Under the pieces are notes generated by a model. It was given only the letters and a program-made list of their open reading frames with translations. It was not told where the DNA came from and made no database searches. Below, in pieces: positions 1,041-38,216 of a stretch of DNA of 46,046 nt (its first letter is position 1; the number at the start of each line of letters is the position of its first letter). The stretch is taken from positions 1 to 46,046 of the IMG/VR virus record IMGVR_UViG_3300020125_000503. One strand, 5' to 3'. The stretch is from a virus. A program made the position numbers and the translations under genes.

Positions 1041-1640
1041 ATGAGCGACGAGAACGCGGCAAGAGAACGAGGGTACCGGTACTACAAGCAGCTCGAGGCG
1101 CAGCGACGGGGATACGCCTTCATTCGCGATACGATCGCCGAGTTTCTGATCAATCGGCGATGGCAACTCGGGCAGCGGGAGCAGGTGCAGGCGGTCGTGC
1201 TCGAGCTCGTCGACAAGCTGATGGAAGCCGGCGCGCTGGCGCTGTACCAGTGCGGCATCGACGTCGAGAACAACCAGGCCATCAAGGAGCAGGAGCAGCG
1301 CCGACAGCGTCAGCTGCGCCAGGCCGAGACCAGCAGCGCCGTCCATGAGGCGCGCGAAGACGAGCGGCTTCGGGTCGATCGTCGGATAGCCGAGCTCAAC
1401 GAGGAACGCGAGCGCGAGAAATACGAGGACTATCTGCGCCGCGAGCTCGCGCGCGCCAACGAGAAAGCTGCAAACGAGGCGGCGCGCGGGATTGACGGCG
1501 GAATCATCAGCGAGTCTTCCGCGGAGATCGCGCGCGCCGAGATCGCGCCGGTCGTGGCCAGAAGCGGGCGCGCGCGCCGCGGCACGAAGCAGATCGTCGC
1601 CGCGCGGCGCGCGAATCGTCTCAGCGACGGCGGGGACTGA
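1041..1640 (+). CDS. Hypothetical coiled-coil protein
   Basis: A 199-residue protein of unknown function. Residues about 85-155 are an extended charged helix (EQEQRRQRQLRQAETSSAV and REDERLRVDRRIAELNEERE), very likely coiled coil. The C-terminus is basic (ARSGRARRGTKQIVAARRA), which could contact nucleic acid. The ATG at 1041 follows a GGGGGAAA site and a leader hairpin. It is alone on the plus strand, divergent from the 921-21 operon, and followed by a run of six T right after the stop. Its position at a divergent control region makes an early regulatory or structural role possible, but nothing in the sequence proves this. Confidence 0.8.
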   Translation: MSDENAARERGYRYYKQLEAQRRGYAFIRDTIAEFLINRRWQLGQREQVQAVVLELVDKLMEAGALALYQCGIDVENNQAIKEQEQRRQRQLRQAETSSAVHEAREDERLRVDRRIAELNEEREREKYEDYLRRELARANEKAANEAARGIDGGIISESSAEIARAEIAPVVARSGRARRGTKQIVAARRANRLSDGGD

Positions 1641-1659
1641 TTTTTTGTGCGGTGCGTAG

Positions 1660-1676
1660 TTGACATAATATGCCAA
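1660..1676. promoter_or_regulatory. 17-bp near-perfect palindrome, candidate operator O1
   Basis: The site reads TTGACATA-A-TATGCCAA: eight-base arms around a single central A with one mismatch. It contains a TTGACA, but no -10 box sits at a sensible distance. It is one of few AT-rich islands in this GC-rich genome. A related sequence lies at 1823-1839. Confidence 0.5.
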
Positions 1677-1740
1677 GTGAGGACGCGCTTTTGACCCTAC
1701 CCCACTGAACGACCGCGCCGTAATTGAAGCAGCTGAAACG

Positions 1741-1757
1741 GCCCGAACACTTCGGGC
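1741..1757. terminator. Short hairpin downstream of the 1041 gene
   Basis: GCCCGAA-CAC-TTCGGGC forms a perfect 7-bp stem with a 3-nt loop. It could end transcription between the plus gene at 1041 and the minus gene at 2073-1879. No T run follows on either strand, so it is only a weak intrinsic-terminator candidate. Confidence 0.35.
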
Positions 1758-1822
1758 GCGAGCGACGTTTCCGTCGTCGGTGGGTTCACGCTCCGCGCTA
1801 GCCCGGTGCGCCATCGATAGCT

Positions 1823-1839
1823 GAAACGTATTATGCCGC
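1823..1839. promoter_or_regulatory. Candidate operator O2, related to O1
   Basis: The core CGTATTATGCC matches CATAATATGCC of the site at 1660-1676 at all but two positions, in the same orientation. The left half is more degenerate than in O1. The ten bases AGCTGAAACG occur at 1731-1740 and again at 1819-1828, just before this site. Confidence 0.35.
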
Positions 1840-1878
1840 GAAATCGCATAGCAAGAAATTGCAGAAAGAAATTTGTAA

Positions 1879-2073
1879 CTACGCGAAAGTCATCGCGGTC
1901 AACCCCTCCGAAATCAGGTTGACCTCCAGCTGGCGCATCCCTTCATCGATCAGCTCCTCAAGGCGGCGCGCGCGCGCCGGCGTGAAGCTCGTGTCGTCGG
2001 CAAACACCTGTCGATTGGCGCTCTCGATGACCCGCCGGCGCGCATCGCGAATCATGTCCGGGGTGAGGTGCAT
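1879..2073 (-). CDS. Small hypothetical protein, possible regulator
   Basis: A 64-residue, mostly helical protein (MIRDARRRVIESANRQVF, ARARRLEELIDEGMRQLEV). A good ribosome-binding site AGGGAG lies 7-8 bases before the ATG at 2073. It is a single minus-strand gene between plus-strand genes, facing the zinc/HTH gene at 2248 across about 170 bp with palindromes. That position is typical of small phage regulators, but no DNA-binding fold is recognisable. Confidence 0.75.
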   Translation of the reverse strand: MHLTPDMIRDARRRVIESANRQVFADDTSFTPARARRLEELIDEGMRQLEVNLISEGLTAMTFA

Positions 2074-2158
2074 GTAGATCTCCCTGATGCAGACTACGCG
2101 CTTTCGCCGATCCGAGCGCGAAAACGGCGTGAAAACGACAAACGGAAGGTGTGGGACG

Positions 2159-2236
2159 CTAATTCATTAGTACGGCGCTATTTGCGTGCGACGGGGAATG
2201 TGGCCTAGCACGCGAACACGAAGAGGCTGCGTGCTA
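2159..2236. promoter_or_regulatory. Divergent control region with two inverted repeats
   Basis: CTAAT-TC-ATTAG (2159-2170) is a perfect 12-bp palindrome. TAGCACGC (2206-2213) and GCGTGCTA (2229-2236) are perfect 8-bp arms 15 bases apart, ending 11 bases before the GTG at 2248. Both lie between divergent genes 2073(-) and 2248(+) and are candidate operators. Confidence 0.45.
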
Positions 2237-2247
2237 CCATAACCGCC

Positions 2248-2730
2248 GTGCGCGCGGTAGGCGCCGTATGTCCCCTCTGCGGCGTCCCGCTCGAGCGACA
2301 CCGGCCCTGCGCCGTTTGCTTCTCCACCAACGCCCATACCAGGCTCTGCACGTTCTGTCGTCGCCAGCATCAGGCGCTGGGCATCGACTGGAACGAAGAA
2401 GATGCGCCGACCGCCGATGGCGTCGACATCGGCAGCGATGATCGCCATCCGCTCGCGGTGCCGCTGGCCGAGCTCGCGGGTCGCCGGCGCGCCCGCCGGC
2501 CGGCGGCGAAGCTCGCGCGCGTGATGCAGCTGCTGCTGATCCGCGACGAGGTGACGGCCGTGCGGCGCATTGATGACCGCGGCCGCTTTCGCGGATCGTA
2601 CTGCTGCCGAGTCCCGCTTTCGCGCCGCGGCGTCGCTCGACGTGCGGGGTGTAGTCACACCTACGTAAATCGGATCTTTCGTCAGCACGTTCGTGCACGG
2701 CCACAGCAGGCGACGAAAAAAGATATGTAA
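2248..2730 (+). CDS. Zinc-finger plus helix-turn-helix protein, probable DNA-binding regulator
   Basis: A 160-residue protein. Three CxxC pairs lie at C8/C11, C21/C24 and C34/C37, followed by H41, forming a probable zinc-binding head. An acidic linker (about 48-66) follows. Residues about 125-147 (SRRGVARRAGCSHTYVNRIF) resemble a helix-turn-helix of the type that positions an operon activator or repressor. The start is GTG, just after an 8-bp inverted repeat that could be an autoregulatory operator. This is the best candidate in the genome for a sequence-specific transcription regulator, either the lysis/lysogeny switch or an early-to-late switch (inference). Confidence 0.7.
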   Translation: MRAVGAVCPLCGVPLERHRPCAVCFSTNAHTRLCTFCRRQHQALGIDWNEEDAPTADGVDIGSDDRHPLAVPLAELAGRRRARRPAAKLARVMQLLLIRDEVTAVRRIDDRGRFRGSYCCRVPLSRRGVARRAGCSHTYVNRIFRQHVRARPQQATKKDM

Positions 2731-2741
2731 TAATTATACGG
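2712..2741. promoter_or_regulatory. AT-rich patch, candidate promoter or repressor target
   Basis: About 28 of 30 bases from 2712 on are dominated by A and T, including TAATAATTATAC (2728-2739). This is striking against the GC-rich background. It covers the end of the 2248 gene and precedes the gene starting near 2810. TATAAT can be read on the minus strand and TAATAAT on the plus strand; no convincing -35 is seen for either. Confidence 0.4.
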
Positions 2742-2809
2742 TGATCGCCCTCTTGCCCGGCGTCGACGGGGTGGGCAGGGTGGAAACTCACTCTGCGCAA
2801 TCAGGCGTC

Positions 2810-3577
2810 ATGCGAGATTCGGCTGGCAACGAGGATCGCTCGAAAGTCTTCCTCACCGACGACGATATCAAAGCCCTGTGGGAGGAGCGGCTCGTGTCGC
2901 TCCAATGCTTGACCGGGAACGGCGAGGGGCTGATCCCACAATTGGCCGACGGCGTTCCTGGGTGGTTCAAGGCGCAGGAGCTCGGGCTCGCGCTCGATCA
3001 ATCACCCTCGATCTTGTCGACGGTGTACGGATGCCCGCAGCACGATGTGCCGTCGCTCCGCGAGGCGAATGCGAGTCGGAAGCACCTCGAGCGCGATCTC
3101 GAGAACAGCCTCATCAAAGCATTGCTCGCGGCGACGCCCAGCAAAGTGGTGAGGGCGCGCGTGAAGCTGATTCCGCCGGCGCGCGGCTGTAGCGGCTGCT
3201 CTTCGTGCGTGCCCGACACGCGGCTGCGGCCGACGCGCGGGCGCGATCGCGCCCGCCTGGCAAGTTGGACGCCTGGCAGCATGCGCCCCGTCGACGCGGC
3301 GGTGGTCTCGTTCCTGCGCGCGGCCGCGGTAGCTGTGCGGCGCGCTCGCCGCGAAGATCGCGCGGTCATTTCGTTCCTGCGCGCCGGCGCCGCCGCCATC
3401 CGTCGCGCGCGCAGCGACGGGCAATCCGCCACCAAGCGGCAACGCAAGGATCGCCACAACGGCGCGCGTGCGCAGATGCAGGCGCGCCGCGACGAGACAA
3501 AGGCCATGCGCGCGGTCGCGCGTCGCGTCGGCGTTCGCGTCAAGAACGGCTCGGTCACGCGCGAGGGCAGCTCGTGA
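2810..3577 (+). CDS. Hypothetical protein with two basic internal repeats
   Basis: A 255-residue protein of unknown function. The N-terminal 110 residues look globular (VFLTDDDIKALWEERLVSLQ, PQLADGVPGWFKAQELGLAL). The C-terminal half is very basic. It carries a duplicated motif, VVSFLRAAAVAVRRARRED followed by AVISFLRAGAAAIRRARSDG, then Lys/Arg-rich sequence, suggesting nucleic-acid or membrane-surface binding. No start has a strong ribosome-binding site: ATG 2810 is used, but GTG near 2779 or 2741 are alternatives. Its stop overlaps the next GTG (GTGA). It opens the Ku/recombinase cluster. Confidence 0.65.
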   Translation: MRDSAGNEDRSKVFLTDDDIKALWEERLVSLQCLTGNGEGLIPQLADGVPGWFKAQELGLALDQSPSILSTVYGCPQHDVPSLREANASRKHLERDLENSLIKALLAATPSKVVRARVKLIPPARGCSGCSSCVPDTRLRPTRGRDRARLASWTPGSMRPVDAAVVSFLRAAAVAVRRARREDRAVISFLRAGAAAIRRARSDGQSATKRQRKDRHNGARAQMQARRDETKAMRAVARRVGVRVKNGSVTREGSS

Positions 3578-3726
3578 GGCTGCAACTCGCCATCATGAGC
3601 GTCGTGCTCTTCATCGTCGGCGGCGTCGCGCAAGTCATGCATTTATTCCGTTCGCCGCCGCGCCGCCGCACGCGCGCAGGTGAGAGCCGCGCCGGCGGCG
3701 CGAGCTCGCGCCGCCGGCGCGCGTAG
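3574..3726 (+). CDS. Small single-pass membrane protein
   Basis: A 50-residue product starting at a GTG that overlaps the upstream stop (GTGA). Residues 4-24 (QLAIMSVVLFIVGGVAQVMH) form one hydrophobic segment. The remainder is a strongly basic tail of Arg and Gly. Function unknown. It is a typical small phage membrane protein and precedes the Ku gene by 31 bases. Confidence 0.6.
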   Translation: MRLQLAIMSVVLFIVGGVAQVMHLFRSPPRRRTRAGESRAGGASSRRRRA

Positions 3727-3757
3727 CACCAACCAGACTTCCACAGAGGAGCTTTCG

Positions 3758-4582
3758 ATGGCACTGCGCTCGATCGCGAACGCGACGATCCTGTTCGGCA
3801 TGGTGCGGATTCCTGTCCGCGTGCACGCAGCCATCGAATCGTCCGAGCAGATCAGCTTCAACCTCTTGCACGCCAATTGCGGGTCGCGTCTGCGGCAGCA
3901 ATACGTCTGCATCAACGAGAACGTCGTCGTCGACCGCGACGCGACGGTCAAGGGCTACGAGGTGCAGAAGGGCCAGTACGTCACGCTGACGCAGGAGGAG
4001 CAGAAAGCGCTCGAGGACGAATCGACGGCGACGATCGCCATCGCCGAGCTGACCGATCCTTTCCCGGCGATCACCTATCTCGATCGCTGCTACTTCCTCG
4101 GTCCCGACAAAGGCGCCGATCGCGCCTACAAGCTGCTCGTCGCCGCGCTCAGCGAGACCGGCTGCGGCGCCATCGCGCGCTACTCGGCGCGCGGCAAGCA
4201 GTACCTCGTCATGCTGACGATCTCGCGCGGCCGCCTGCTCATGTTGCAGCTCCATTACGCCGACGAAGTGCGCTCGATCGACGATGTGGAGCTCGGCGAG
4301 ACCGCCGAGTTCGGCGCGGAGGAGCTTCGCCTGGTCAAGAGGCTGGCGCGCAAGCTGCGCCGCCGCGGCGTCTTCGACATCAGCCAATACCGCGACGAAG
4401 TCAAGGAGCGGCTGCGCGCGCAGATTCAGCGCAAGATCGACGGCCAAGAGATCATCGCGGCGCCGACCGCCGATGCACCGGCCCCCATCGTCGATCTGCT
4501 CGAGGCGTTGAAGCAGAGCATCAGCACGCGGCTAGCGCCGGGCCCGATCGGTTCGCGCGCCTCGGCGAAGGCGGCACGTTGA
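3758..4582 (+). CDS. ku: Ku-type DNA end-binding protein
   Basis: A 274-residue protein matching the bacterial Ku family, whose homodimers ring double-strand DNA ends and recruit ligase in non-homologous end joining. Visible family features are the N-terminal FGMVRIPVRVHAAIES (13-28), ISFNLLHANCGSRLRQQYVC (32-51), VKGYEVQKGQYVTLTQEE (64-81), then IDDVELGE and the basic bridge region. Length is normal for the core; the basic C-terminal tail common in bacterial Ku is short (SRASAKAAR). AGAGGAG lies 6 bases before the ATG. No LigD is present, so a host ligase would be needed. Mu Gam is a distant Ku relative, and some mycobacteriophages carry a Ku used in genome circularisation; this protein looks like the bacterial form. 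Confidence 0.88.
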   Translation: MALRSIANATILFGMVRIPVRVHAAIESSEQISFNLLHANCGSRLRQQYVCINENVVVDRDATVKGYEVQKGQYVTLTQEEQKALEDESTATIAIAELTDPFPAITYLDRCYFLGPDKGADRAYKLLVAALSETGCGAIARYSARGKQYLVMLTISRGRLLMLQLHYADEVRSIDDVELGETAEFGAEELRLVKRLARKLRRRGVFDISQYRDEVKERLRAQIQRKIDGQEIIAAPTADAPAPIVDLLEALKQSISTRLAPGPIGSRASAKAAR

Positions 4583-4785
4583 TGGACCCGGAACAGGGCC
4601 GCCTGCTCTTCGGCATCCTCGAGACGGCCGGCGGGCTCAACATCCGCGCGGGCGCGACGCCCGAGCAGCTGCTTCCACTTCTGCTCAACGTCGTCGAGGA
4701 TCTGCGCTTCCAGGTTTTCCAACGCCGCCTACAAGGCGATCAGCGGGTGCAGGTCGTTCCAGCCGGCGCGATCAAGCTCCAGTGA
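4582..4785 (+). CDS. Small hypothetical protein coupled to Ku
   Basis: A 67-residue protein with a helical N-terminus (PEQGRLLFGILETAGGLNI, PEQLLPLLLNVVEDLRFQVF). Its ATG shares one base with the Ku stop (TGATG), so translation is coupled. No domain is recognised. A partner or adaptor of Ku is a guess from position only. Confidence 0.7.
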   Translation: MDPEQGRLLFGILETAGGLNIRAGATPEQLLPLLLNVVEDLRFQVFQRRLQGDQRVQVVPAGAIKLQ

Positions 4786-4997
4786 GCCGCGAAATGTTCG
4801 ACATGTTCGATGATCTCTTCGGTGCTCAATTCGTGCACCTCGGCGAGCTCAACGTGCTGCTCGAGCTCGAGGCACTCAAGCGGCGCGATCCTGCGTCGTT
4901 CACGGCCCAGGTCGTTCGTCGCGCGATGGAGGCGGCGCAGCGAGGTGGATACGAGGCCAACTTCTGGCGCCGATATCTGCGACGGCTGACGAAATGA
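4782..4997 (+). CDS. Small hypothetical protein in the Ku operon
   Basis: A 71-residue protein, acidic at the start (MFDMFDDLFGAQFVHLGELN) and basic at the end (FWRRYLRRLTK). The GTG start overlaps the previous stop (GTGA), and its own stop overlaps the next ATG (ATGA). Function unknown. Confidence 0.7.
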   Translation: MSREMFDMFDDLFGAQFVHLGELNVLLELEALKRRDPASFTAQVVRRAMEAAQRGGYEANFWRRYLRRLTK

Positions 4998-5284
4998 TGC
5001 CCATGGACACGACAATCGAGAAGCTCGTCAACGCCGCCTTGAAGCTCAACAGCAAGGAAGTGAGCATCCGCGTCCGACGAATCGACCAGGAGCACCTGCG
5101 CGTGGAGATCAACGCGAGAGTGGACGAGCGGCGCTTCGCTGACGCGATCGAGATTCGGATTGCCGACTGGCCCGAGCTCGCGGATGCGCCGCCGAGGTTC
5201 ATGTATCGCCGGATGTTCTACACGCTGCTCGACGCGCTCGAGCGTCTGCCATCTGAAATCGCCGCAATCGCCGCAGCCCCATGA
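4994..5284 (+). CDS. Small hypothetical protein in the Ku operon
   Basis: A 96-residue protein with alternating strand and helix character (KEVSIRVRRIDQEHLRVEI, FMYRRMFYTLLDALERLP). It is linked by ATGA overlaps to the genes on both sides, placing Ku and the recombinase on one coupled message. No known domain is recognised. Confidence 0.7.
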   Translation: MMPMDTTIEKLVNAALKLNSKEVSIRVRRIDQEHLRVEINARVDERRFADAIEIRIADWPELADAPPRFMYRRMFYTLLDALERLPSEIAAIAAAP

Positions 5285-5952
5285 AGCTCGTCGCCTACTC
5301 CCGCGTCTCGACGGAGGAGCAGGCGAAGGACGGGTTGTCGCTCGTCGCGCAGCGCGCGCGCTTCGAGGCCTACGCCACAGCGTTCAATCATGAGCTCGTT
5401 GCAGTGATCGAGGATGCCGGCATCAGCGCCAAGTCGCTGAAGCGTCCCGGTCTACAGCGCGCGCTGCGGATGTTGCGCAAGCGCGAGGTCGACGGGCTGC
5501 TGATCGCCAAGCTCGATCGCCTTTCACGAAGCCTGATTGGATGGGCGACGCTGATCGAGAAGTTCTTCAACGAGAAGAGCGGTCGGCATCTGCTATCCGT
5601 CTCGGACTCGATCGATACCAGCAGCGCCAGCGGCCGCCTGGTGCTCAACGTGCTCATGTGCGTGGCGCAGTGGGAGCGCGAGGCGATCGCCGAGCGCACC
5701 AGCGAAGCACTGCAGCACAAGAAGCGCAGTGGCGCGCGCCTCGGCGCGGTGCCGATGGGCTTTCAACGCCGCGGCGACACGTTCGTCGAGGATCCGCTCG
5801 AGCAGTCCGTGCTGGCGCGCGCGCGCGAGCTCGCCGCCGGCGGCGCCAAGCTCGGCGCGATCGCCGCCGCGCTGGCAACCGAGGGCCACCAGACGAAGCG
5901 GGGCGGCAAATGGCACATCACGACGGTGCGAAAGCTGCTGACTCGGCGATGA
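5281..5952 (+). CDS. Small serine recombinase (resolvase/invertase family)
   Basis: A 223-residue protein. Its N-terminal catalytic domain has YSRVSTEEQ with the nucleophile Ser10 and Arg8, AKLDRLSRS carrying Arg80 and Arg83 (equivalents of Arg68 and Arg71 of gamma-delta resolvase), and a long E helix (NVLMCVAQWEREAIAERTSE). The C-terminal 80 residues (GAKLGAIAAALATEGHQ, GGKWHITTVRKLL) resemble the helix-turn-helix/recombinase-domain part seen after the catalytic domain. At 223 residues it is far shorter than large serine integrases. It could resolve multimers, invert a segment, or integrate. A 28-bp palindrome with a 2-bp centre at 6397-6424 is a candidate site. Confidence 0.9.
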   Translation: MKLVAYSRVSTEEQAKDGLSLVAQRARFEAYATAFNHELVAVIEDAGISAKSLKRPGLQRALRMLRKREVDGLLIAKLDRLSRSLIGWATLIEKFFNEKSGRHLLSVSDSIDTSSASGRLVLNVLMCVAQWEREAIAERTSEALQHKKRSGARLGAVPMGFQRRGDTFVEDPLEQSVLARARELAAGGAKLGAIAAALATEGHQTKRGGKWHITTVRKLLTRR

Positions 5953-6155
5953 CGCCATGCAAGCTTTGCGGCGAACCCGTCTCCACTTTCGCACGCGTTG
6001 TGCTGGGTTCAAGCGTCGTTCACCCGGCGCTGCTACACCGCCGGTCTTCAAGCCGAGCTCGAGCAGTTGCGCGAGCAACTGCTGGCACGCGCGTTGTCAA
6101 CTCGGGAAACCGAATCGTCCGATTAGGTTTCCCGAACGTCACTTCCCGTCGCTGA
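5949..6155 (+). CDS. Small zinc-finger protein, probably frameshifted
   Basis: The ATG overlaps the recombinase stop (ATGA). The start MTPCKLCGEPVSTFARVV has a CxxC pair, but this frame then becomes Arg/Ser-rich like a shadow. In the +1 frame, from about 6019, the sequence reads FTRRCYTAGLQAELEQLREQ and continues to a TAG at 6124-6126. That looks like the true second half, giving CxxC followed by RRC and a leucine-rich helix. Either one base is wrong in the assembly near 6015-6019, the gene is broken, or the ribosome shifts. The uninterrupted frame ending at 6155 is reported, but the real protein probably ends at 6126. Confidence 0.5.
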   Translation: MTPCKLCGEPVSTFARVVLGSSVVHPALLHRRSSSRARAVARATAGTRVVNSGNRIVRLGFPNVTSRR

Positions 6156-6468
6156 ACGCCGACGGCGGCACAAAAGCAACGGGGCCACCGTCGCCGGTGA
6201 CCCCGCTGGGCGCGCCCGATCGGGGACGCGCCATCAGCCACCAGCGTAAGGCCCGTTCGATTCGCCCGTCAATCCGCGTCTCGTTCCTCCCAGCTGCAGG
6301 CCACAGCGCCGGCACGAAATCGGGGAGCAGGCGAGGGGGCGATGACGGGTAACTCTCCGTCGGTGGCTGCGCGCCGCGGCCGACCAAATACACCTGGGTG
6401 TACGAGACGTTCGTCTCGTACACCAGCTACCCGCTGATGGTCATTCCCCGTCGCTGAGGAGCCATAGA
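6156..6468. other. 313-bp spacer with hairpins and the 28-bp palindrome
   Basis: This stretch holds no confident gene. It contains a hairpin at 6180-6205 (CGGGG-C-CACC / GGTG-A-CCCCG), followed on the minus strand by a short T-rich run, and the compound palindrome at 6389-6424. A minus-strand open frame from GTG 6423 to 6139 has fair composition and would end 12 bases from the shifted zinc gene, so it may be coding. It has no visible ribosome-binding site and I leave it unannotated. Confidence 0.5.
6397..6424. promoter_or_regulatory. Perfect 28-bp palindrome with 2-bp centre, candidate recombination site
   Basis: Arms GGTGTACGAGACG (6397-6409) and CGTCTCGTACACC (6412-6424) flank TT. A further TACACC lies at 6389-6394, so the hexamer TACACC/GGTGTA occurs three times in 36 bases. 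The size of 28 bp with a 2-bp core is that of a resolvase crossover site. A strong operator for the gene at 6469, or a transcript hairpin, are alternatives. Confidence 0.55.
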
Positions 6469-6735
6469 ATGCATGACGTTTTCGGCTCGGAAGCGCGCCG
6501 GCGCGCGCAAGCCGCGAAGGATGCGGTCGATGTCGCCCGTCCGGTCGTCTACGTGAAGGGCTTGCTCGCGCTGCGCCCCATCGCAGAGCGCCTCGCCGCT
6601 GCCACGCCGCCGAGCCGCTCCGAGGAGGAGCTCGCAGAGCGCCGCGCGCACAGACGGCACAATCGACAGAGGGCGCGGCGCCGCCGCTTCCATCGTCCAG
6701 TCTCGTCGAAGAATCGCGCGCGCGCCGCCGCGTGA
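6469..6735 (+). CDS. Small basic hypothetical protein
   Basis: An 88-residue protein. GAGGAG lies about 9 bases before the ATG, a good ribosome-binding site. The N-terminal half has a helical look (ARRRAQAAKDAVDVARPVVY). The C-terminal third is a run of Arg, His and Lys, implying binding to nucleic acid. It starts 45 bases after the 28-bp palindrome, which may control it. Confidence 0.65.
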   Translation: MHDVFGSEARRRAQAAKDAVDVARPVVYVKGLLALRPIAERLAAATPPSRSEEELAERRAHRRHNRQRARRRRFHRPVSSKNRARAAA

Positions 6736-6751
6736 ATCCCGGAGCCGTTCG

Positions 6752-7225
6752 GTGAGCCACAAGCGCCCGCCCGACGCGTGGGCGCTCGAGATTCAGCTCG
6801 CAAAAGAGGAGCAGCGCAGCGCCGAGCTGATCATCGAGAATCGCGGGCTCAAGACTCGCGTGGCCGAGCTCGAAGCCGCGCTCGCTGGCGAGCGCTACCA
6901 ACGCCACCTCGGTCGAGCGGCGCAAGTTGTGCGCGGGTCAAGTGGCGACGTTCTCGGCTACACACTCGACGCTCCGGGCTTCGACGACGTGTATGTGGGC
7001 CCCGACGGCGCTTTGCATGGCCGTCCATCTGCTCCACCGGCGGCGACGTCGCAGCAGATCGCATCCGCAACAACGCCAGCACCCGCGCCGGCGTCAAAGG
7101 GATTTTCCTCCGCCCTCGACCGTCCGCCCATCGGCAACGGCTTCGAAGGCGTGGATTCCACCGCTCAGAAGCTGCAGCAGCCCAAGTCGGAACCCACGCG
7201 GTTCACGTTCCTCGAGGTCGACTGA
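6752..7225 (+). CDS. Hypothetical coiled-coil protein
   Basis: A 157-residue protein starting at GTG 6752. Residues 10-50 (LEIQLAKEEQRSAELIIE, GLKTRVAELEAALAGE) form a coiled coil. Then comes a compact motif, GDVLGYTLDAPGFDDVYVGP, and a Pro/Ala-rich disordered tail. Function unknown. The stop shares a base with the ATG of the lipoprotein gene downstream (TGATG). Confidence 0.75.
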   Translation: MSHKRPPDAWALEIQLAKEEQRSAELIIENRGLKTRVAELEAALAGERYQRHLGRAAQVVRGSSGDVLGYTLDAPGFDDVYVGPDGALHGRPSAPPAATSQQIASATTPAPAPASKGFSSALDRPPIGNGFEGVDSTAQKLQQPKSEPTRFTFLEVD

Positions 7226-7746
7226 TGAAATCTCTTTTCGCTTTGCTCTGCATCGGCAGCGTTTTCGCCGGCTGTGTTCGGTCTTCTTCGGTTGGAAGCG
7301 CGCAGGCCGCGCTCGAGGCGAATGACGGCGGCGCCGACGCAGCTGTTGTCGATGCGTCCGTCCCCGATCTCGGCCCCGGCGGCATCGGCACGCCATGCAA
7401 CTCCGATCGCGACTGTTTCATGACCATCGTCTGCAGCCCGAACAGCAACGGCGGCGAGGATTGCGTCGGCACGCTTCACTGTCCGATCTGCGGCGACGGG
7501 AACACCTGCACTGTCGACGGCGTCTGTGACGGGCCCGTCTGCGGCGGCGGCAATGTCGTGTGCAATCCGCTGTACGTCTGCGCGCTCGACGGCAACTGCG
7601 TGCCGCCGTGCCGCGACAACGTGACCGATGAGGTCATTTACGAGGGCGTGTGGGGCTGCGAGGGCGTCGGAGAATTGACAGCTGCCGACGGACGCTGCTT
7701 TATCCCCGAGTGGTACCCGCTGTGTCGACGATCCGGAGGCCATTGA
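7225..7746 (+). CDS. Cysteine-rich secreted lipoprotein, possible cargo gene
   Basis: A 173-residue protein. MKSLFALLCIGSVFAGC is a lipoprotein signal with the lipidated Cys at 17. An Asp/Ala/Gly-rich linker (NDGGADAAVVDASVPDLG) follows, then about 115 residues with many cysteines in a repeating pattern (GTPCNSDRDC, CPICGDGNTC, GVCDGPVCGGG), as in small disulfide-rich repeats. Such linker-plus-cysteine lipoproteins are very common in Myxococcota and rare in phages. It would be anchored in the host envelope, where a role in surface change or superinfection exclusion is possible. It is coupled to genes on both sides, so it is a regular part of the operon rather than an isolated insertion. Confidence 0.8.
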   Translation: MKSLFALLCIGSVFAGCVRSSSVGSAQAALEANDGGADAAVVDASVPDLGPGGIGTPCNSDRDCFMTIVCSPNSNGGEDCVGTLHCPICGDGNTCTVDGVCDGPVCGGGNVVCNPLYVCALDGNCVPPCRDNVTDEVIYEGVWGCEGVGELTAADGRCFIPEWYPLCRRSGGH

Positions 7747-7862
7747 TGCTGCGGTTCATCATCGCCATCGTCTGCATCGATGCATTCGCCATTGGCCTGT
7801 GCATCAACGGTTGCTCGATGCGCGACGTAGACGTTCAAGACGTCTGCTGCGGTCCGCGATGA
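7746..7862 (+). CDS. Very small membrane or lipoprotein-like peptide
   Basis: A 38-residue product with a hydrophobic N-terminus (FIIAIVCIDAFAIGLCINGC). The end of this segment resembles a lipobox with Cys23. It is coupled to the lipoprotein gene by TGATG. It may be a membrane peptide or a lipoprotein accessory; no family is recognised. Confidence 0.55.
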   Translation: MLRFIIAIVCIDAFAIGLCINGCSMRDVDVQDVCCGPR

Positions 7863-7924
7863 AGCGTCGCCCGCTGCCGAGATTTTCTCGCAAGGTTTGG
7901 CGGCGGCGGCGAGCTCGCCGATAA
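7859..7924 (+). CDS. 21-residue basic peptide ORF
   Basis: An ATG overlaps the previous stop (ATGA), and its TAA overlaps another ATG (TAATG at 7922-7926). The product is Arg/Lys-rich. The double overlap is what real genes here show, but the ORF is so short that it may only serve to carry ribosomes to the gene at 7945. Confidence 0.3.
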   Translation: MKRRPLPRFSRKVWRRRRARR

Positions 7925-7944
7925 TGCGGCCCGGAGGTTCGCCA

Positions 7945-8700
7945 ATGGATCCCGCGCAAGAGATCATTCAGGCCGCCGCCGAGGAGCTGCTACTCAAATT
8001 CGCCGCCTGTCCACTGAGCCAGCAGGCCTTGCGCGCGATGACCGCGTTTCTTCATACCCTCACCGTCGAGGAAGACCCGAGGCGCCCCGGCCATATTTTG
8101 CTCAGCGGAAGTGAACATCACGCGAACGCACTGCGTGAAGCCGTACGCCAGGACGGCGGCATGGGTCCAGTGCCGCCGGAGGTTCTGGCCGCGCTCGAGG
8201 GAGCAGCACGGGAACAAGACGATATCGCCTATGCCTGCCTGTCTGCGATGCGCAACGGTTGTCCCTCTGGCAGGGCCGTCGGAATCACGCTGCGGGCATA
8301 TGCGGAGCAGCGCGCCTTTTTGAAGCGGCGAGCGCACCTCATCGCGGAGGAGGCAGGCGTCGTCGGCCAACCGCAACCGCAACCGCGCATCAATCGCGCG
8401 TATGTTCCGCTCGAGGATTTCACGGCGCTGAAGAGCGAGCTCGAGAAGACGAAGGCCGACCTCGAGAAGAAGAGCAAGGCCGAGAGCCGAATGCGCGAGG
8501 TCGCCGACGAGCTGCTGCGGTTCGTCGCGACTCTGCCGCTGCAGGATCACAGCATTCAGGTCCAGCGACAGCGCGAGGGTATCGTCCATCGAGCTCTAGC
8601 AGCGCTGCGCCCGCCGCTCACTGTCTCGCTCAGCGCAGACGAGCTCGAAAAGATCACGCGCGCGGTCGCGATCGCCGCGTTCAGGCTTCCCGACGCCTGA
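7945..8700 (+). CDS. Hypothetical protein with central coiled coil
   Basis: A 251-residue protein. GGAGG (7933-7937) with a 7-base gap selects ATG 7945, though ATG 7924 is in frame and coupled to the small ORF upstream. The first 140 residues are helical and include HTLTVEEDPRRPGHILLSGS. Residues about 160-190 (ALKSELEKTKADLEKKSKAE) form a coiled coil. The C-terminal part is again helical. No catalytic motif is seen. It lies in the block of unknown middle genes and is coupled to the zinc protein downstream (TGATG). Confidence 0.75.
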   Translation: MDPAQEIIQAAAEELLLKFAACPLSQQALRAMTAFLHTLTVEEDPRRPGHILLSGSEHHANALREAVRQDGGMGPVPPEVLAALEGAAREQDDIAYACLSAMRNGCPSGRAVGITLRAYAEQRAFLKRRAHLIAEEAGVVGQPQPQPRINRAYVPLEDFTALKSELEKTKADLEKKSKAESRMREVADELLRFVATLPLQDHSIQVQRQREGIVHRALAALRPPLTVSLSADELEKITRAVAIAAFRLPDA

Positions 8701-9044
8701 TGAAAATCGGGAACGTCACGCTCTGCGATGACTGCGGCGCAGCGTATACGCCGCACGCGCGCGACTGTCCCAAGTACGGTGCCCGCCCGCCGATGCTCGG
8801 CAGTATCGAAGTCTCGCTAAACGGCAAGGTCATCGTCCCTGCGAAGAGCATCCGCGTGACCGTCACCCAGCGGAACCGGCCTATTCAGCAGTGTGAATGC
8901 GGCCGGCAAATCTGCGCTGAACGATGCGCATGCGGAGCCCGCGCAGGCCAACATCATCATCGGCTCTGCGAGCACGAAGTGCCCCTCCCAAGGCGTGACG
9001 ACCAGCTCGATCCATTCTTCTGCCAGAAGCAACCTGACCCGTAA
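8700..9044 (+). CDS. Zinc-binding protein with two cysteine clusters
   Basis: A 114-residue protein. The first cluster is C9/C12 and C23. The second is C65/C67, C72, C76/C78 and C90, followed by a His-rich patch (QHHHRLCEHE). Between them a beta-rich segment (IEVSLNGKVIVPAKSIRVTV) is seen. The pattern suggests two zinc sites. Its start overlaps the stop upstream, and its stop overlaps the next ATG (TAATG). One of about ten small cysteine-pair proteins in this genome; role unknown. Confidence 0.7.
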   Translation: MKIGNVTLCDDCGAAYTPHARDCPKYGARPPMLGSIEVSLNGKVIVPAKSIRVTVTQRNRPIQQCECGRQICAERCACGARAGQHHHRLCEHEVPLPRRDDQLDPFFCQKQPDP

Positions 9045-9244
9045 TGAGCGCACGTAGCCGCAGCCATCCGTGGTTTCGCAATGGCGTCCTAGAGAACCGA
9101 GCACGCGCGAGACGCGAGCTCGATTGGCGCCGTGGCGAGGCCTTCGTGTGGAGCGAGGCGCGACATGGACGTGGCAGCAGCGACCAGCTCGTCACCTTCG
9201 CGTGGTGGGCCTACGACATGTTGATGAGCGCAAGCGGTCGCTGA
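9044..9244 (+). CDS. Small hypothetical protein
   Basis: A 66-residue, Arg/Trp-rich protein (RRELDWRRGEAFVWSEARHG, FAWWAYDMLMSASGR). The ATG overlaps the upstream stop as TAATG. No known domain. It is the last gene before a 215-bp non-coding, highly structured stretch. Confidence 0.65.
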   Translation: MSARSRSHPWFRNGVLENRARARRELDWRRGEAFVWSEARHGRGSSDQLVTFAWWAYDMLMSASGR

Positions 9245-10614: not shown

Positions 10615-10984
10615 GCGCGCCGTCGAGAAGAAGCACGACGAGCGGGCGGCTCGCCGCCGCCGCGGCCGCTGGAAAGAGGCGACCTGGCGCGCGCGCTACG
10701 CCGCCGCGGAGGCGCCCACCGATCCGCGGCAGGCTCACGAGCACGTCGCCAAGATGGTGCTCATCGCGCTCGAGGAAGCGGCAAGCGACCCGGGGCCTCC
10801 GCCCGAACAGCGCCGCGATCAGATCGCGCGCATCGCCGCCATCTTCGCCAAGGTCAACGACCCGGCCGAGCTGATGGCCGAGCTGCGCGAGCTCTACGAC
10901 GCGTTGAAGAAGGGGTCCGACGGTGCCGCACACGAGCCGAGCGGAGATGCTCCGGTTCGCGCGGCGCCGGCTTCTCTCTCGTGA
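10589..10984 (+). CDS. Probable small terminase-position protein
   Basis: A 131-residue protein immediately before, and overlapping by 62 bases, the large terminase. The TTG start follows an AGAGGGG site; the longer ATG-started frame lies over the previous gene. The N-terminus is very basic (MPSKKSGGKRAVEKKHDERA, RRRRGRWKEATWRARYA). The centre is helical (QAHEHVAKMVLIALEEAASD, RDQIARIAAIFAKVNDPAEL). A small terminase subunit that binds the packaging site is inferred from position and the basic/helical make-up; no defining helix-turn-helix is seen. Confidence 0.55.
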   Translation: MPSKKSGGKRAVEKKHDERAARRRRGRWKEATWRARYAAAEAPTDPRQAHEHVAKMVLIALEEAASDPGPPPEQRRDQIARIAAIFAKVNDPAELMAELRELYDALKKGSDGAAHEPSGDAPVRAAPASLS

Positions 10985-12578
10985 CCGCTACGTCGACGCG
11001 CTGCTCGTCATCGAAGCGCACACCGGCGAGGAGCTGCTCCGCGTCGGCGGCTGCTGGGATATGCACGCCGAGCGGTACGTCGATCGACCGGTGCAGGCGC
11101 GCGTCGTCCGGCTCGAGGAGTCGCAGCTCGAGCTCGGCCGCGCGCTGGCGCGATGGATCGCCGATCGCCAGGCGGCCAGGCGGCGCGCGCGCGCGATCGT
11201 CGCCGGCGGCCCGCGCGGCTCCGGCAAGACCTGGTGCATGGCCGGCGTCTTCTTCGCGGTCATGGCGCTGGCCTTTCCCGGCGAATGGATGTTCGGCATC
11301 AATCTCACGCTGAAGCAAAAGCGTGAATGCATCGAGGCCATCGAAGCCGTCGTCGATGCGAAATGGATCGCCGGCGAGGTGAATGACTTCCGCGATCCAC
11401 AGCTGCAGTTTCTGACGGGCGCGACCATCAGCTGGAAGTCGGCGCAGAACCCGCGCGCGATTCGCGAGGCGGGCCTGCGCATCTCGTACATCCTCATCAA
11501 CGAGGGACAGGACCAGCCCGAGATCGTTTTCATCAACGCGATTTCCGCGATTCGCAATTGCGGCGCGCTGCTCGGCATCGCCACCAACCCGCCGCGCGAA
11601 GATCGTAGCGACTGGGTCGCTGCGGTGTGGGAAGGCATCGAAGCCGGGCGCCTCAACGGCGAGCGCTACTTCGTCGACAACAAGAAGAACCGCTCGATCG
11701 ATCAAGCGTCGCTCGGTGACATCGCCGAGTTCATCCGCACCGTCAATCGCGAGGCGGCGGAGGCCGACGCCGACGGCGTCTTCAAGCTGTCCGGCCCGAT
11801 TGCATATCCAGCGTTCCGAGCGCTGCCGCGCGAGCGCGGCGGGCACGTCGGCGCGCCGCCGATCGTCCAGGTCGGCCGCGGCTGGGCCGATGTCACGCGC
11901 GAGATCAGCGCGGCCGCCGTCGAGAGTCAGGCCGGATATGACTTCGTTGTCGGCGTCGATTTTCAGCGACTGCCCGGCTGTATCGGCGTCATCGCCAAGC
12001 TGTATCGCGACGAGCGCGGGCGCATCATCCTGCACGTCATCGACATCGTCGCCGTGCGCGGCGTCGAGCCCGACTTCTCGCAGGGGCTGATCGCTGCCGG
12101 CTATTTCCCAGCGCACGGCATGGGCGGACCGACGGCGTTGCTCGTCGGCGACGCTACCGGAGCTCGGCAGAACGCAGAGCATCGCTTCGCTCAGCCGCCG
12201 TCGTTCACGGCGCTGCGCGCGGACGGCTGGAAAATCGTTCCGCCGATGTATCACTGGCGGCGCGGCACGCCGTGGAACCCGATGGTGCGCGACTCGCGCG
12301 CGCAGATGCACGGGCTGCTCGAGCAACATCAGATCCTGCTATCCGAGCGCTGCGCCGAGCCTGCGGATGGGTTCCCGTCGCTGATCGAATCGTTCCGCCG
12401 CGCCAAGGTCGGGCCACGCGGTGGCCTCATCGAGCTCGGGCAGTACCAGCACGGCCCCGACGGCGTGCGCTACCTGGCCTGGCGTTTTCTGCCGCGGCCG
12501 AAGCCGCAAACGCCGGCGCCAACGCTCGACGAGCAGACGCTCGACAAAGTGCGCGGCGTGAAGATCTTCGGCTCCTAA
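10923..12578 (+). CDS. terL: Terminase large subunit (packaging ATPase and nuclease)
   Basis: A 551-residue protein that drives DNA into the prohead and cuts it. Walker A is GGPRGSGKT (95-103). The Walker B position is YILINEGQD (189-197), where Asn193 stands in place of the usual Asp before the catalytic Glu194. The coupling motif LLGIATNPP (217-225) resembles the TxNP of Mu-type terminases. The nuclease half begins YDFVVGVDFQRLPG with Asp346 as first metal ligand, and LLVGDATGARQ supplies Asp410. Start is GTG with AAGGGG upstream. Order small subunit-TerL-portal-protease is the standard head operon. Confidence 0.92.
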   Translation: MPHTSRAEMLRFARRRLLSRDRYVDALLVIEAHTGEELLRVGGCWDMHAERYVDRPVQARVVRLEESQLELGRALARWIADRQAARRRARAIVAGGPRGSGKTWCMAGVFFAVMALAFPGEWMFGINLTLKQKRECIEAIEAVVDAKWIAGEVNDFRDPQLQFLTGATISWKSAQNPRAIREAGLRISYILINEGQDQPEIVFINAISAIRNCGALLGIATNPPREDRSDWVAAVWEGIEAGRLNGERYFVDNKKNRSIDQASLGDIAEFIRTVNREAAEADADGVFKLSGPIAYPAFRALPRERGGHVGAPPIVQVGRGWADVTREISAAAVESQAGYDFVVGVDFQRLPGCIGVIAKLYRDERGRIILHVIDIVAVRGVEPDFSQGLIAAGYFPAHGMGGPTALLVGDATGARQNAEHRFAQPPSFTALRADGWKIVPPMYHWRRGTPWNPMVRDSRAQMHGLLEQHQILLSERCAEPADGFPSLIESFRRAKVGPRGGLIELGQYQHGPDGVRYLAWRFLPRPKPQTPAPTLDEQTLDKVRGVKIFGS

Positions 12579-12609: not shown

Positions 12610-14109
12610 ATGGATGCGTCCTCGTTCGGCATGCTGGTCGTCCAGCGCATCAGCTCGGCGCTCGGCTACCGCAACGCGCCCGACGACGATGAAGGCGGCC
12701 TGCCGCGCATTCGGCGCGAGCCGCCGATTCAGATCGCGCCGTCGTTCAAGACGGTGCAGGACTGCGCCGACACGATCACGTTGCTCGATTTCGGGCAGTT
12801 CATGCTGCCCGCCTGGCTCATCGAGCAAATGCTCTGGAATAGCCGGCTGCGCGGCGTCACCAACACGCGCCTCGACGGCCTGGTCGGAACGGAGATTCGC
12901 TGGGAGTACGGCCGCAACAATGCGCTCGGCCGGCGCGCGGCGCGCGACATCGTCGAGGACTGGCCGCTGATGATGAGCGCGCCGACGCGCAAGCAGCTCT
13001 CGAAGTGGGGCCTGTTCCTCGGCGTCGGTCTCGGGCAAAAGCACTGGTACGAGTCGCCGACGTCGGGACGAATGATCCCGCGCGTCGAGACCTATCACCC
13101 GCAATGGTGCCTGTGGGACTGGTACCTGCGCGCTTATCGCGTGTGGACGCTCGACGGCTGGGCGCTGGTGCCGTCGCCGTCGCTGCAGGTTCCCGGGCAG
13201 CCGTGGCAGCCGCTCATCGGCTCGGCGTCGACGCCGCTCGGCCAGCCGGACACGCTGCGCCGCTGGGTGGTGCACGAGCCCTTCGGTCAACACTCGTGGC
13301 GCGAGGCGCTCGTGCACGCGGCGTGGCGCCCGTGGCTTGGCCATGAGTGGGCCAATCGCGACCTGTCGCGCGCGAGCGAAAAGCATGGCCTCGGAATCCT
13401 GAAGCTCAAATATCCGAAGGCCACCGACAGCAACGCGCTCAACAAGCTGATCTCGTATCTGCGTCGCCTCGGCAGCGAAGGCATCGTCCCCGTCGAGCAA
13501 TACCGAGACGACACGGGCATGGCGAGCTACGACGTCGAGCCGCTCGAGTGGAATGGCGCCGGCGCCGATATCATCCGCAGCACCAAGGAATCGAACGCCT
13601 CCGATATGGCGGTGCTGATGCTCGGCCACAACACCACGGCCGAGACCAAGGGCGCCTCGGTGGGCGCGAGCGCGCAGGTCGGAAACCTCATCCGCGGCGA
13701 CATCAGAATCGGCGACTGCTGCAGCGATTGGGTGACCGTCTACAACCTCGCGCGTGATTGGTGCGAGGTCAATTACGGCGATCCGGGCGCGGCGCCGATT
13801 CCGGTCTACGTAACGGATCCTCCGTCGGAGAATCAGGCGGCGGCGATGACGCTCTTCAACGTCGCGCAAGCCGTCGACAAGCTGCGTGTCGCGGCCCCCG
13901 GCGTCGACTTCACCGAGCTGCTCAACCGCTTCCGCGTTCCGATGGGGCCGACCGGCGCCAAGGTTGTCCTGGCGCCGGCGCCCGGCGCGGCGCCGCCGGG
14001 CGAGCCTGGCGGCGCACCGGCGCCGGCGAAGAGCGACCCGCCGGCGAAGGACGACAGCGGCGAGGACGACGACGACGCTGAAGACGATGACGAGGAAGGA
14101 GACGAGTAG
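12610..14109 (+). CDS. Portal protein, Mu gp29/DUF935 type
   Basis: A 499-residue protein between the large terminase and the capsid protease. It forms the dodecameric head vertex through which DNA passes. Supporting features are the helical N-terminal region with WLIEQMLWNSRLRGVTNTRL, repeated Trp-rich strands in the wing (QWCLWDWYLRAYRVWTLDGW), KHGLGILKLKYP and the late motif LGHNTTAETKGASVGASAQV, which resembles the Gly/Ser-rich segment near the end of DUF935 proteins. The final 60 residues are Pro/Ala-rich and then very acidic (DSGEDDDDAEDDDEEGDE). GGAGG precedes the ATG. Confidence 0.88.
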   Translation: MDASSFGMLVVQRISSALGYRNAPDDDEGGLPRIRREPPIQIAPSFKTVQDCADTITLLDFGQFMLPAWLIEQMLWNSRLRGVTNTRLDGLVGTEIRWEYGRNNALGRRAARDIVEDWPLMMSAPTRKQLSKWGLFLGVGLGQKHWYESPTSGRMIPRVETYHPQWCLWDWYLRAYRVWTLDGWALVPSPSLQVPGQPWQPLIGSASTPLGQPDTLRRWVVHEPFGQHSWREALVHAAWRPWLGHEWANRDLSRASEKHGLGILKLKYPKATDSNALNKLISYLRRLGSEGIVPVEQYRDDTGMASYDVEPLEWNGAGADIIRSTKESNASDMAVLMLGHNTTAETKGASVGASAQVGNLIRGDIRIGDCCSDWVTVYNLARDWCEVNYGDPGAAPIPVYVTDPPSENQAAAMTLFNVAQAVDKLRVAAPGVDFTELLNRFRVPMGPTGAKVVLAPAPGAAPPGEPGGAPAPAKSDPPAKDDSGEDDDDAEDDDEEGDE

Positions 14110-14113
14110 AGCA

Positions 14114-15694
14114 ATGGACCTTCCTCTGTTGCTTCATGCGATCGTCGGCAGCCCGCTCGCAATCTCGGCGCGCGGCATGGCCGAGCTGCTCGCGATCGCC
14201 AACGGACAGGTGGCGCCACGCCAGCGGCGGCGGCCGCTCTCCGACCGGCTGCAGCTCGAGGCGATCCAGGCCTACGACGACGAGCCGCTCGAGGACACGC
14301 ATACCGCAGAGGTCCGCGACGGCGTCGCGATCATGCTCGTGCGCGGCCCGATGATGCGCCACGCGAGCTCGTTCCGATATTGGTTCTCGAACGCGACGAG
14401 CTACGGCGAGCTCCGCAAAGACTTCCAGCGCGCGCTCGACGATTCTTCGGTGCGCGCCATCTTGTGGGACTTCGATTCGCCCGGCGGCCAGGTCAACGGC
14501 CTGGCCGAGCTCGGCGAGGCCATCTACGCCGCGCGCGGCAAGAAGCCGATGCGCGCGTACGCGTCGGGTGATTGCTGCAGCGCCGCTTATTGGCTCGCCA
14601 GCGCCGTCGGGGACATCCGCTGCTCGCCGACCTCCGAGCTCGGATCGATCGGCTGCAAGATGCTCTATTTCGACGACACCAAGGCCCTTGACGAGATCGG
14701 CTACAAGCGCGTCGAGATCGTCAGCTCGAATGCGCCCGGCAAGGCCAGCGATCCGTCCGACCCCGACTACAAGAAGCGTCTGCAGGCGCAGTGCAACGAA
14801 TACGGAGCGCTCTTCGCCGCGACGGTGGCGCAGTACCGCGATGTCGCCCTCGACGCCGTCCAGTCGGATTACGGCAAGGGCGACGTGCTCATCGGCGCCA
14901 GCGCCGTCGAGGCGGGTCTCTGCGATGGGCTTAGCAATTTCGAAGCGGTGCTCGCCGAGATGAAAGCGAGCACGCCGAGCGGCCGCGGCGGCCGCGCCAA
15001 TTACTTCCCCGGCATGGGAGGAGCGAACCACATGGACACCAAGATCATCGCCAAGCTGCTCAAGCTCGAGGAGGGCGCCAGCGAGCGCGAGATCGAAGAT
15101 CGCGCCCAGTCGCTCGCCCAATTCGAGCGCGAGGTATTGGCCGCCGCCGGCAGCACCGACCCCGACGAAGCCGTGGGCAACGTGCGCGCCGGCATCGAGG
15201 CGCTCAAGGAGCGGGACGAGCTGCGCGCCGACCTCAAAGCGCAGAAGCACGACACCACGCAGAGCGAATTTCGGCGCACGGTGAAGAAGGCGCTCAAATC
15301 TCGCAAGCTGACGCTCGGCCAGGTGGCCACCCACGTCGTGCCCTTCCTCAAGGAGGAAGAGGCGGCGAAGGCGACGGCGGCGATCGCCGCCGTGCCCGAG
15401 CAGACGAAGAAGCTGGTGCTCGACGCGCTGTGCACCGCGCAGGCCTCGCCCAAGGCGCTCAAGAAGCTGCAGGCGTTCCTTTCCAAGCAGACCGAGCAGC
15501 TGCCGACCGGCAAGGACGAGCCGCCGCCCGACGACGCCAGCCGCGCGCAGGTGCTGACGCTGAGCTCCGACCAGGCCAAGCAATTCGGCAAGGACTACGG
15601 CCTGAAGCAGGAGACGATTTCGAAGTTTCTCAACGTCACGAGCGTCGAGGACATCCACAAGGCCCACAAGGCGGCGGTCGACGCCAAGAAATAG
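14114..15694 (+). CDS. Head maturation protease (S49 type) fused to scaffold
   Basis: A 526-residue two-part protein. Residues about 65-285 form an SppA/S49-like serine protease: ILWDFDSPGGQVNGLAELGE (116-135), catalytic Ser156 in GDCCSAAYWLAS, and the probable Lys210 of the Ser/Lys dyad in NAPGKASDPSDP. Residues about 307-526 are a charged helical scaffold with KLLKLEEGASEREIEDRAQS and a basic C-terminus. A strong internal ribosome-binding site and ATG (15032) allow the scaffold to be made separately, as in the lambda C/Nu3 and Mu I/Z arrangement. The protease would cleave the scaffold so that the capsid can mature. Confidence 0.88.
   Translation: MDLPLLLHAIVGSPLAISARGMAELLAIANGQVAPRQRRRPLSDRLQLEAIQAYDDEPLEDTHTAEVRDGVAIMLVRGPMMRHASSFRYWFSNATSYGELRKDFQRALDDSSVRAILWDFDSPGGQVNGLAELGEAIYAARGKKPMRAYASGDCCSAAYWLASAVGDIRCSPTSELGSIGCKMLYFDDTKALDEIGYKRVEIVSSNAPGKASDPSDPDYKKRLQAQCNEYGALFAATVAQYRDVALDAVQSDYGKGDVLIGASAVEAGLCDGLSNFEAVLAEMKASTPSGRGGRANYFPGMGGANHMDTKIIAKLLKLEEGASEREIEDRAQSLAQFEREVLAAAGSTDPDEAVGNVRAGIEALKERDELRADLKAQKHDTTQSEFRRTVKKALKSRKLTLGQVATHVVPFLKEEEAAKATAAIAAVPEQTKKLVLDALCTAQASPKALKKLQAFLSKQTEQLPTGKDEPPPDDASRAQVLTLSSDQAKQFGKDYGLKQETISKFLNVTSVEDIHKAHKAAVDAKK
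15032..15694 (+). CDS. Nested in-frame scaffold protein (internal start)
   Basis: ATG 15032 (residue Met307 of the protease gene) lies 8 bases after GGAGGAG (15017-15023), a better ribosome-binding site than that of the full gene. The 220-residue product is almost wholly helical and charged, as expected for a capsid scaffold. Nested scaffolds inside protease genes are well known. That this one is used is an inference from the start signal. Confidence 0.6.
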   Translation: MDTKIIAKLLKLEEGASEREIEDRAQSLAQFEREVLAAAGSTDPDEAVGNVRAGIEALKERDELRADLKAQKHDTTQSEFRRTVKKALKSRKLTLGQVATHVVPFLKEEEAAKATAAIAAVPEQTKKLVLDALCTAQASPKALKKLQAFLSKQTEQLPTGKDEPPPDDASRAQVLTLSSDQAKQFGKDYGLKQETISKFLNVTSVEDIHKAHKAAVDAKK

Positions 15695-28173: not shown

Positions 28174-28592
28174 TGCCGGCCGTGGTGTACGGCACCACGA
28201 TCCAGGCGCTGACGGACCTGCCCGATCCGGCGGTTCTGTGCTCCGAGGTTGTCGCCGCCGCGTACGCGTGCGCGCGCCGCTGGGCGACGCCGCCAGGCGC
28301 GCTCGCCGACATCGGTGAGATCGAGCCGTACGAATCGATCGACGTCCGCGATTGGCTCGGCAGCCGCTTCAACCTCACCGACCAATCGGTGCTCAACGAC
28401 CTCGAGCGGCAAGCGACGATTGCGCTGTACGACGAGCCCTACGTCCAATCGGCGACGGTGCGCGTCACCTTCGCGGCCGGCATCTTGACGCTGATCGGAC
28501 AGGTCCAGGGCGCGCAAGGCCCCTTCACGCTCGTGTTCGCCGCCGGCCCCGCCGGCGTCACCGCGCAAATCCTCCTACCCGGACAAAGCTGA
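28173..28592 (+). CDS. Baseplate wedge protein (Mu gp46/gpW-like)
   Basis: A 139-residue protein in the gp25/gp46 position between spike and J-like gene. It has the segment VRDWLGSRFNLTDQSVLNDL and strands VQSATVRVTFAAGILTLIGQ near the end, in line with gp46's C-terminal strand pair. It is TGATG-coupled to both neighbours, supporting a stoichiometric assembly unit. Confidence 0.65.
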   Translation: MPAVVYGTTIQALTDLPDPAVLCSEVVAAAYACARRWATPPGALADIGEIEPYESIDVRDWLGSRFNLTDQSVLNDLERQATIALYDEPYVQSATVRVTFAAGILTLIGQVQGAQGPFTLVFAAGPAGVTAQILLPGQS

Positions 28593-37919: not shown

Positions 37920-38216
37920 TCAGCGCCGGACCATCGTCCTGAGTCGTTCGGCGCGCTGCTCGAGCCTGGCACGTTGCTCGTCGAGCCGCTGATGCAGGGC
38001 TGAAGTCGCGGAGATGATCAACCCCGTCTCGATCAAGTCGGTGGGCGTCTGCGTCACACCGGTCAGTTTCTTGGCGTGGTCGACGACCACAAGCATCGAA
38101 TCCACCATCTGCCGAAAATGCCGCGCCAGCGCCTCGGTCGCGTCGAGCGAGGCGCGCTCCTCTTGTTGGCGTTGCTGGAACGCGTAATTGAGCATCTTCT
38201 CGATGTCCAACGTCAT
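37920..38216 (-). CDS. Helical hypothetical protein coupled to the HerA-like ATPase
   Basis: A 98-residue protein. It is nearly all helix (MLNYAFQQRQQEERASLDAT, ALARHFRQMVDSMLVVVDHA, LHQRLDEQRARLEQRAERLR). ATG 38216 overlaps the ATPase stop (ATGA). Helical small partners next to ATPases can regulate or load them, but there is no motif to prove this. Confidence 0.7.
   Translation of the reverse strand: MTLDIEKMLNYAFQQRQQEERASLDATEALARHFRQMVDSMLVVVDHAKKLTGVTQTPTDLIETGLIISATSALHQRLDEQRARLEQRAERLRTMVRR

Follow-up and report, generated by a model that had tools for sequence, protein, structure and literature searches.

A gene for a 274-aa Ku protein is located at positions 3758–4582 on the plus strand of the window, i.e., the whole stretch of 46,046 nt that constitutes the IMG/VR virus record IMGVR_UViG_3300020125_000503. 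It starts with ATG, six bases downstream of a Shine-Dalgarno sequence, AGGAG (3747–3751, same strand). The gene opens a tight plus-strand operon that continues with three small ORFs, whose junctions overlap or are close, and ends in a gene for a small serine recombinase. The first small ORF (4582–4785, 67 aa) overlaps the Ku stop codon, the second (4794–4997, also 67 aa) has no assignment, and the third (4994–5284, 96 aa) overlaps its neighbors; neither the first nor the third matches any PHROG or known family. The recombinase (5281–5952, 223 aa), overlooked in the first-pass annotation of this DNA, matches the Pfam domains Resolvase (121 bits) and Recombinase (24 bits), as well as PHROG_95, integrase (207 bits), and PHROG_125, invertase (133 bits). 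Its assignment to the large serine integrases was rejected: the latter have about 450–600 residues and a C-terminal domain with a zinc ribbon and a coiled coil, whereas this protein has the size of a resolvase or invertase, and its recombinase domain breaks off after the initial part.

The operon is flanked by palindromes. The longest perfect palindrome of the genome (34 bp, 3688–3721, plus strand) is situated 36 bp upstream of the Ku start. It has half-sites of 17 bp, compared with at best 14 bp in 20 shuffles of the window, and folds as a strong RNA hairpin (z −3.4); judging by the sequence, it is a candidate attenuator, terminator, or operator. The gap of roughly 500 bp downstream of the recombinase gene holds a near-perfect palindrome of 32 bp with the asymmetric center TC (6103–6134) and a 28-bp palindrome with perfect 13-bp half-sites and the asymmetric center TT (6397–6424). 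The latter is not significant by itself, as its length is within the range of the shuffles, and a scan for it across the collection found none. Palindromes with asymmetric centers behind a recombinase gene are arranged like serine-recombinase crossover sites or like hairpin terminators; hence, the two downstream palindromes could be crossover sites of the recombinase or hairpins bounding the transcript.

The product of the first gene is almost certainly a genuine bacterial-type Ku, as judged from both sequence and model. Such a protein had been proposed in the first-pass annotation, and the ORF has exactly the boundaries given there. The match to the Ku family PF02735 (128 bits, E = 4.8e-37) is far above the curated cut-off of 25, and a six-frame family search agrees. 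The protein also matches PHROG_4873, "Ku-like DNA end binding" (121 bits), and the solved Ku chains of B. subtilis and M. tuberculosis (E = 1.5e-28 in a phmmer search of PDB), and the assignment further draws on Foldseek and VIA-align. Both stretches that had initially suggested Ku, FGMVRIPV and CGSRLRQQYVC, were found in the protein. The codon bias of the gene is like that of its neighbors, with a GC3 of 0.88 compared to 0.85–0.95 in seven other genes of the same phage.

The AlphaFold model, built from eight sequences, is of modest to moderate confidence (pLDDT 62.5). In a Foldseek search with this model, solved Kus rank first (E = 1e-17). The whole model superposes poorly (rmsd about 20), good superposition being confined to the predicted core, residues 3–172, which aligns with B. 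subtilis Ku (9vnq) at Z 15.6 and rmsd 3.4 over 152 residues with 38% identity, and with 9i91 at Z 14.8. At the level of the monomer, the fold thus came out as that of Ku. The predicted layout comprises the Ku70/80 beta-barrel core domain (approximately residues 13–189), a conserved minimal LigD-docking C-terminus (approximately 240–254), and a short basic tail of 20 aa.

Functional residues were placed with the help of the residue map for M. tuberculosis Ku (PMC9638933, PMC12658125). In bacterial Ku, LigD binding and ligation have been tied to the minimal C-terminus (PMC9638933), and M. tuberculosis residues D250, L251, L255, S258, and R262 are all retained, as D246, L247, L251, S254, and R258. 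D247 of M. tuberculosis is not retained, and it is missing from the nearest cellular relatives as well. In bacterial Ku, the bridge encircles the DNA, and its His and Cys residues stabilize the dimer. This region can be aligned in the window protein; the equivalents of His35 and Cys48 are kept and that of Cys51 is not, again as in the nearest cellular relatives. The synapsis loop has GMV in place of GLV. The tail contains four lysines or arginines in 20 aa and no acidic residue, compared to approximately 12 in 37 aa in the cellular relatives.

The first and last 127 nt of the record (1–127 and 45920–46046, plus strand) are identical, and we read the record as a complete circular assembly of 45.9 kb. 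On this reading, absences from it are meaningful; at the same time, circularity hides where the virion DNA physically ends. Packaging and head genes, all on the plus strand, begin with the large terminase (10923–12578; PHROG_2, 39 bits), followed by a Mu-type portal (12610–14109; Portal_Mu, 77 bits, and PHROG_113), an S49 head protease with a scaffold-like C-terminus (14114–15694; PHROG_53, 254 bits, and Peptidase_S49), and a Mu gpT-like major capsid protein (17180–18268; Mu-like_gpT, 31 bits, and PHROG_371). Then come the tape-measure protein (24698–26377, weak PHROG matches) and a baseplate J-like protein (28592–30367; Baseplate_J, 29 bits). The portal, capsid, and baseplate matches bear out the initial claim of Mu-type structural genes. 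The minus strand encodes a 590-aa HerA/FtsK-like ATPase with C-terminal winged-helix repeats (38213–39985; Pfam DUF87/HerA, PHROG_2666); the label "terminase" given by PHROG to this ATPase family may be wrong. A 685-aa minus-strand protein (42058–44115) matches neither Pfam nor PHROG. We also noted an inverted repeat of 36 nt, whose copies (30993–31028 and 41477–41512) are 92% complementary, 10.4 kb apart, and apparently in frame in both genes, encoding the common peptide VALIASxRQLxT.

As had been claimed, Ku has no ligase partner here: searches of the window for ATP-dependent (PF01068) and NAD-dependent (PF01653) ligases, both with positive controls, and with a whole LigD query gave no match. 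Profiles of MuA/MuB transposition (PF09299) and of Mu Gam, run without positive controls, had no match in the window either. Apart from the serine recombinase and Ku, which overlap weakly, no transposase was found among the ORFs scanned, which include part of the small ones. No tail sheath was recognized by profile in the window, and neither a repressor nor a true integrase was found. The phage has no near relative in the collections searched: the first 25 kb of the window had no near DNA relative and the terminase had no tblastn match in the phage collection, single-protein scans of viral contigs with Ku or the terminase revealed no relative, and a motif scan of viral contigs tuned to the Ku type of the window and Gemmatimonadota found none.

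The nearest cellular Kus are chromosomal proteins of Gemmatimonadota, with 45–51% identity over nearly the full length. Many of them have the motif CGSRLKQQYVC, and their C-terminal helix is the same as in the window protein. They differ in that they are mostly encoded beside LigD, which was found within the flanks read at 33 of 41 distinct Gemmatimonadota Ku loci, and have a longer basic tail, whereas the window copy stands alone and is long-branched. Ku is also common on plasmids; those of Cupriavidus, Caballeronia, and Burkholderia encode Kus that are 40–47% identical (Cupriavidus 46–47%) and reside, like that of the window, in the context of a mobile element, but several of these plasmids carry ligD within a few kb. 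In a maximum-likelihood tree of 61 rows, the Gemmatimonadota clade is the sister group (support 91/88) of the window Ku, which sits on a long branch. The phylogeny suggested in the first-pass annotation thus yields a candidate donor, most likely Gemmatimonadota-like by sequence; this placement is a lead rather than proof, since the phylum is by far the most densely sampled one and the window branch is long. A second hint, also at the level of protein similarity, may concern the host: a Gemmatimonadota prophage encodes homologs of the HerA-like ATPase (29% identity over 610 aa) and of the head protease (41%), and its contig is chromosomal in setting, with UvrA, PEPCK, BipA, FliF, and FliG. The ATPase also occurs in 16 other viral contigs, all lacking Ku; hence, the gene pool of this ATPase does not invariably include Ku. 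Taken together, we infer that the window Ku was acquired from a cellular Ku–LigD locus, independently of the mycobacteriophages.

Ku is rare among described phages. The first-pass annotation held that it is known in a few mycobacteriophages; this is an understatement, as roughly 80 mycobacteriophage records from two clusters carry it. A search of 50,697 annotated phage records with four diverse Ku queries found these and one short fecal fragment only. One Streptomyces phage with Ku, BillNye, has been reported (PMC11936186), and the predicted-structure library contains a Ku homolog from an uncultured Caudovirales. An NHEJ component has been reported absent in about 3000 actinobacteriophages (PMC7719229).

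A motif scan of IMG/VR yielded six further contigs, G003–G008. Like the window, these are viral contigs with a single Ku; unlike it, they have other hallmark genes, and their Kus share 34–37% identity with that of the window. In the related contigs G008 (4157–7358) and G003 (1521–4567), both with 69% GC, the Ku gene is succeeded by three small ones and then by that of a tyrosine integrase; G008 also encodes a GpA-type terminase and a tail sheath. Ku shortly before a site-specific recombinase recurs in unrelated uncultured phages. A possible kinship of the small genes downstream of Ku in the window and G008 was rejected, as they show no similarity. Contigs G005 (67 kb), G006 (68 kb), and G007 (a 30-kb fragment) form one group, in which G006 has confirmed phage head genes and G005 a ParB-like gene; no PF01068 ligase was found in the three. 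In G004 (3927–9187), Ku is localized near two ATP-ligase ORFs of 282 and 454 aa, so that this may be a phage equipped for end joining with two components of its own. A single lineage of all phage Kus was rejected (AU test, p = 0.0003), the window and mycobacteriophage proteins being on opposite sides of the starred tree branches. That the window Ku shares an origin with those of G008 and G003 alone (p = 0.16), or with all non-mycobacterial uncultured phage Kus (p = 0.105), was not rejected.

The reading that we favor, with about an even chance of being correct, is that Ku binds the ends of the linear phage genome and recruits the host LigD. A homodimeric Ku ring would thread onto linear DNA ends, either those of the injected genome or those of genomes that break on replication or are cut by host nucleases. 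It would keep two ends together and, as the phage lacks a ligase of its own, bring in LigD of the host. The phage would benefit mainly by closing its ends into a circle or by repairing breaks; the circularization role, assumed already in the first-pass annotation, is carried over by analogy. The retained docking residues, the lack of a ligase in a complete genome, and the location of most cellular relatives beside LigD speak for recruitment, whereas the short, less basic tail and the loss of D247 and of the second bridge cysteine, both of which the nearest cellular relatives lack as well, speak against it. The main rival, to which we assign a smaller but appreciable probability, is that Ku coats the linear ends and, like Mu Gam, protects them from RecBCD/AddAB-type exonucleases, so that ligation is unneeded. 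This rival would mark the sequence in almost the same way. M. tuberculosis Ku indeed binds ends and forms DNA-coating filaments (PMC12658125), and the absence of both a ligase and, in a search without positive control, a Gam match from a phage with a Mu-type head is in line with protection. However, end coating alone would not need the conserved LigD-docking helix, and LigD recruitment is favored for this reason. Repair proper, in which Ku and the host LigD would mend breaks made by host defense nucleases or during replication while the genome is circularized otherwise, seems rather unlikely: it involves the same biochemistry as LigD recruitment and agrees with the location of Ku in the presumed early region, upstream of the packaging genes, but no linked defense or counter-defense gene was recognized, and error-prone joining is costly within genes.

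The overlapping genes ending with a recombinase, the near-perfect palindromes around them (3688–3721, 6103–6134, and 6397–6424), and the succession of Ku and a tyrosine integrase in the unrelated pair G008 and G003 could mean that the recombinase cooperates with Ku and the three small proteins in site-specific circularization, integration, or the resolution of multimers, with the palindromes as sites. This is improbable: similarity is lacking between the small genes of the two phages, no role of Ku alongside site-specific recombinases is known, and the hairpins may be plain transcription boundaries. A marginally better, still low probability is given to the notion that the operon and its palindromes constitute a single transferable module for DNA ends, with Ku passing ends or circularized DNA to the recombinase. 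It is very unlikely that Ku is a moron by which a lysogen supplements host NHEJ and aids host survival under stress; the small serine recombinase is a possible temperate feature, and plasmids frequently carry Ku too, but with neither a repressor nor a true integrase found, lysogeny is not established. A last explanation, that assembly joined a host Ku gene to a phage contig, is hardly credible. The phage is known from a single record with no near genome relative, which would allow for such a chimera; yet the assembly is circular, the codon bias of Ku matches that of other phage genes, no recognized cellular gene adjoins it, and its long branch has diverged from host Kus.

So far, the use of end joining by phages has rested on actinobacteriophages, mainly mycobacteriophages. 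The window is a complete genome of a phage with a head of the Mu type and a Ku that was acquired independently, that is, a known kind of phage Ku in a new phage lineage. Together with the other uncultured phages, it suggests repeated recruitment of Ku by phages in LigD-bearing bacteria. It can now be tested whether exploitation of host NHEJ by phages is general, and why some of them, such as G004, also bring a ligase.

Two known systems are relevant here. Mu Gam binds DNA ends and likewise belongs to a phage whose head genes are of the Mu type; the window differs in having a full bacterial Ku and, in the search lacking a positive control, no match to the Gam profile. The closer parallel is with the mycobacteriophages of Omegavirus (Cluster J, e.g., Pound and WXIN) and Corndogvirus (Cluster O, e.g., Catdawg), whose single-domain Ku is likewise phage-borne and has a LigD-docking C-terminus. 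The Omegavirus Kus are about 30% identical to the window Ku and form a separate branch of the tree. The mycobacteriophages have larger genomes and, in the regions seen, no recombinase adjacent to Ku, unlike the window; phages of the Omega group have Ku near an FtsK-like gene and possess an Lsr2-like tail (PMC3706429). A further mark of the Omega and Corndog type is short genome overhangs (4 nt) that require NHEJ, a trait that a circular assembly such as that of the window conceals. Circularization by NHEJ is ascribed to Corndog and Omega in PMC4351075 and PMC3706429, and these two as well as PMC7719229, all citing Pitcher et al. (2006), propose this role for phage Kus. As in these phages, Ku of the window is encoded in a phage genome, together with the terminase, Mu-type portal, capsid protein, and protease, and without a ligase of its own; in the Omega and Corndog type, the host LigD has been proposed to close the genome, and we propose the same for the phage described here.
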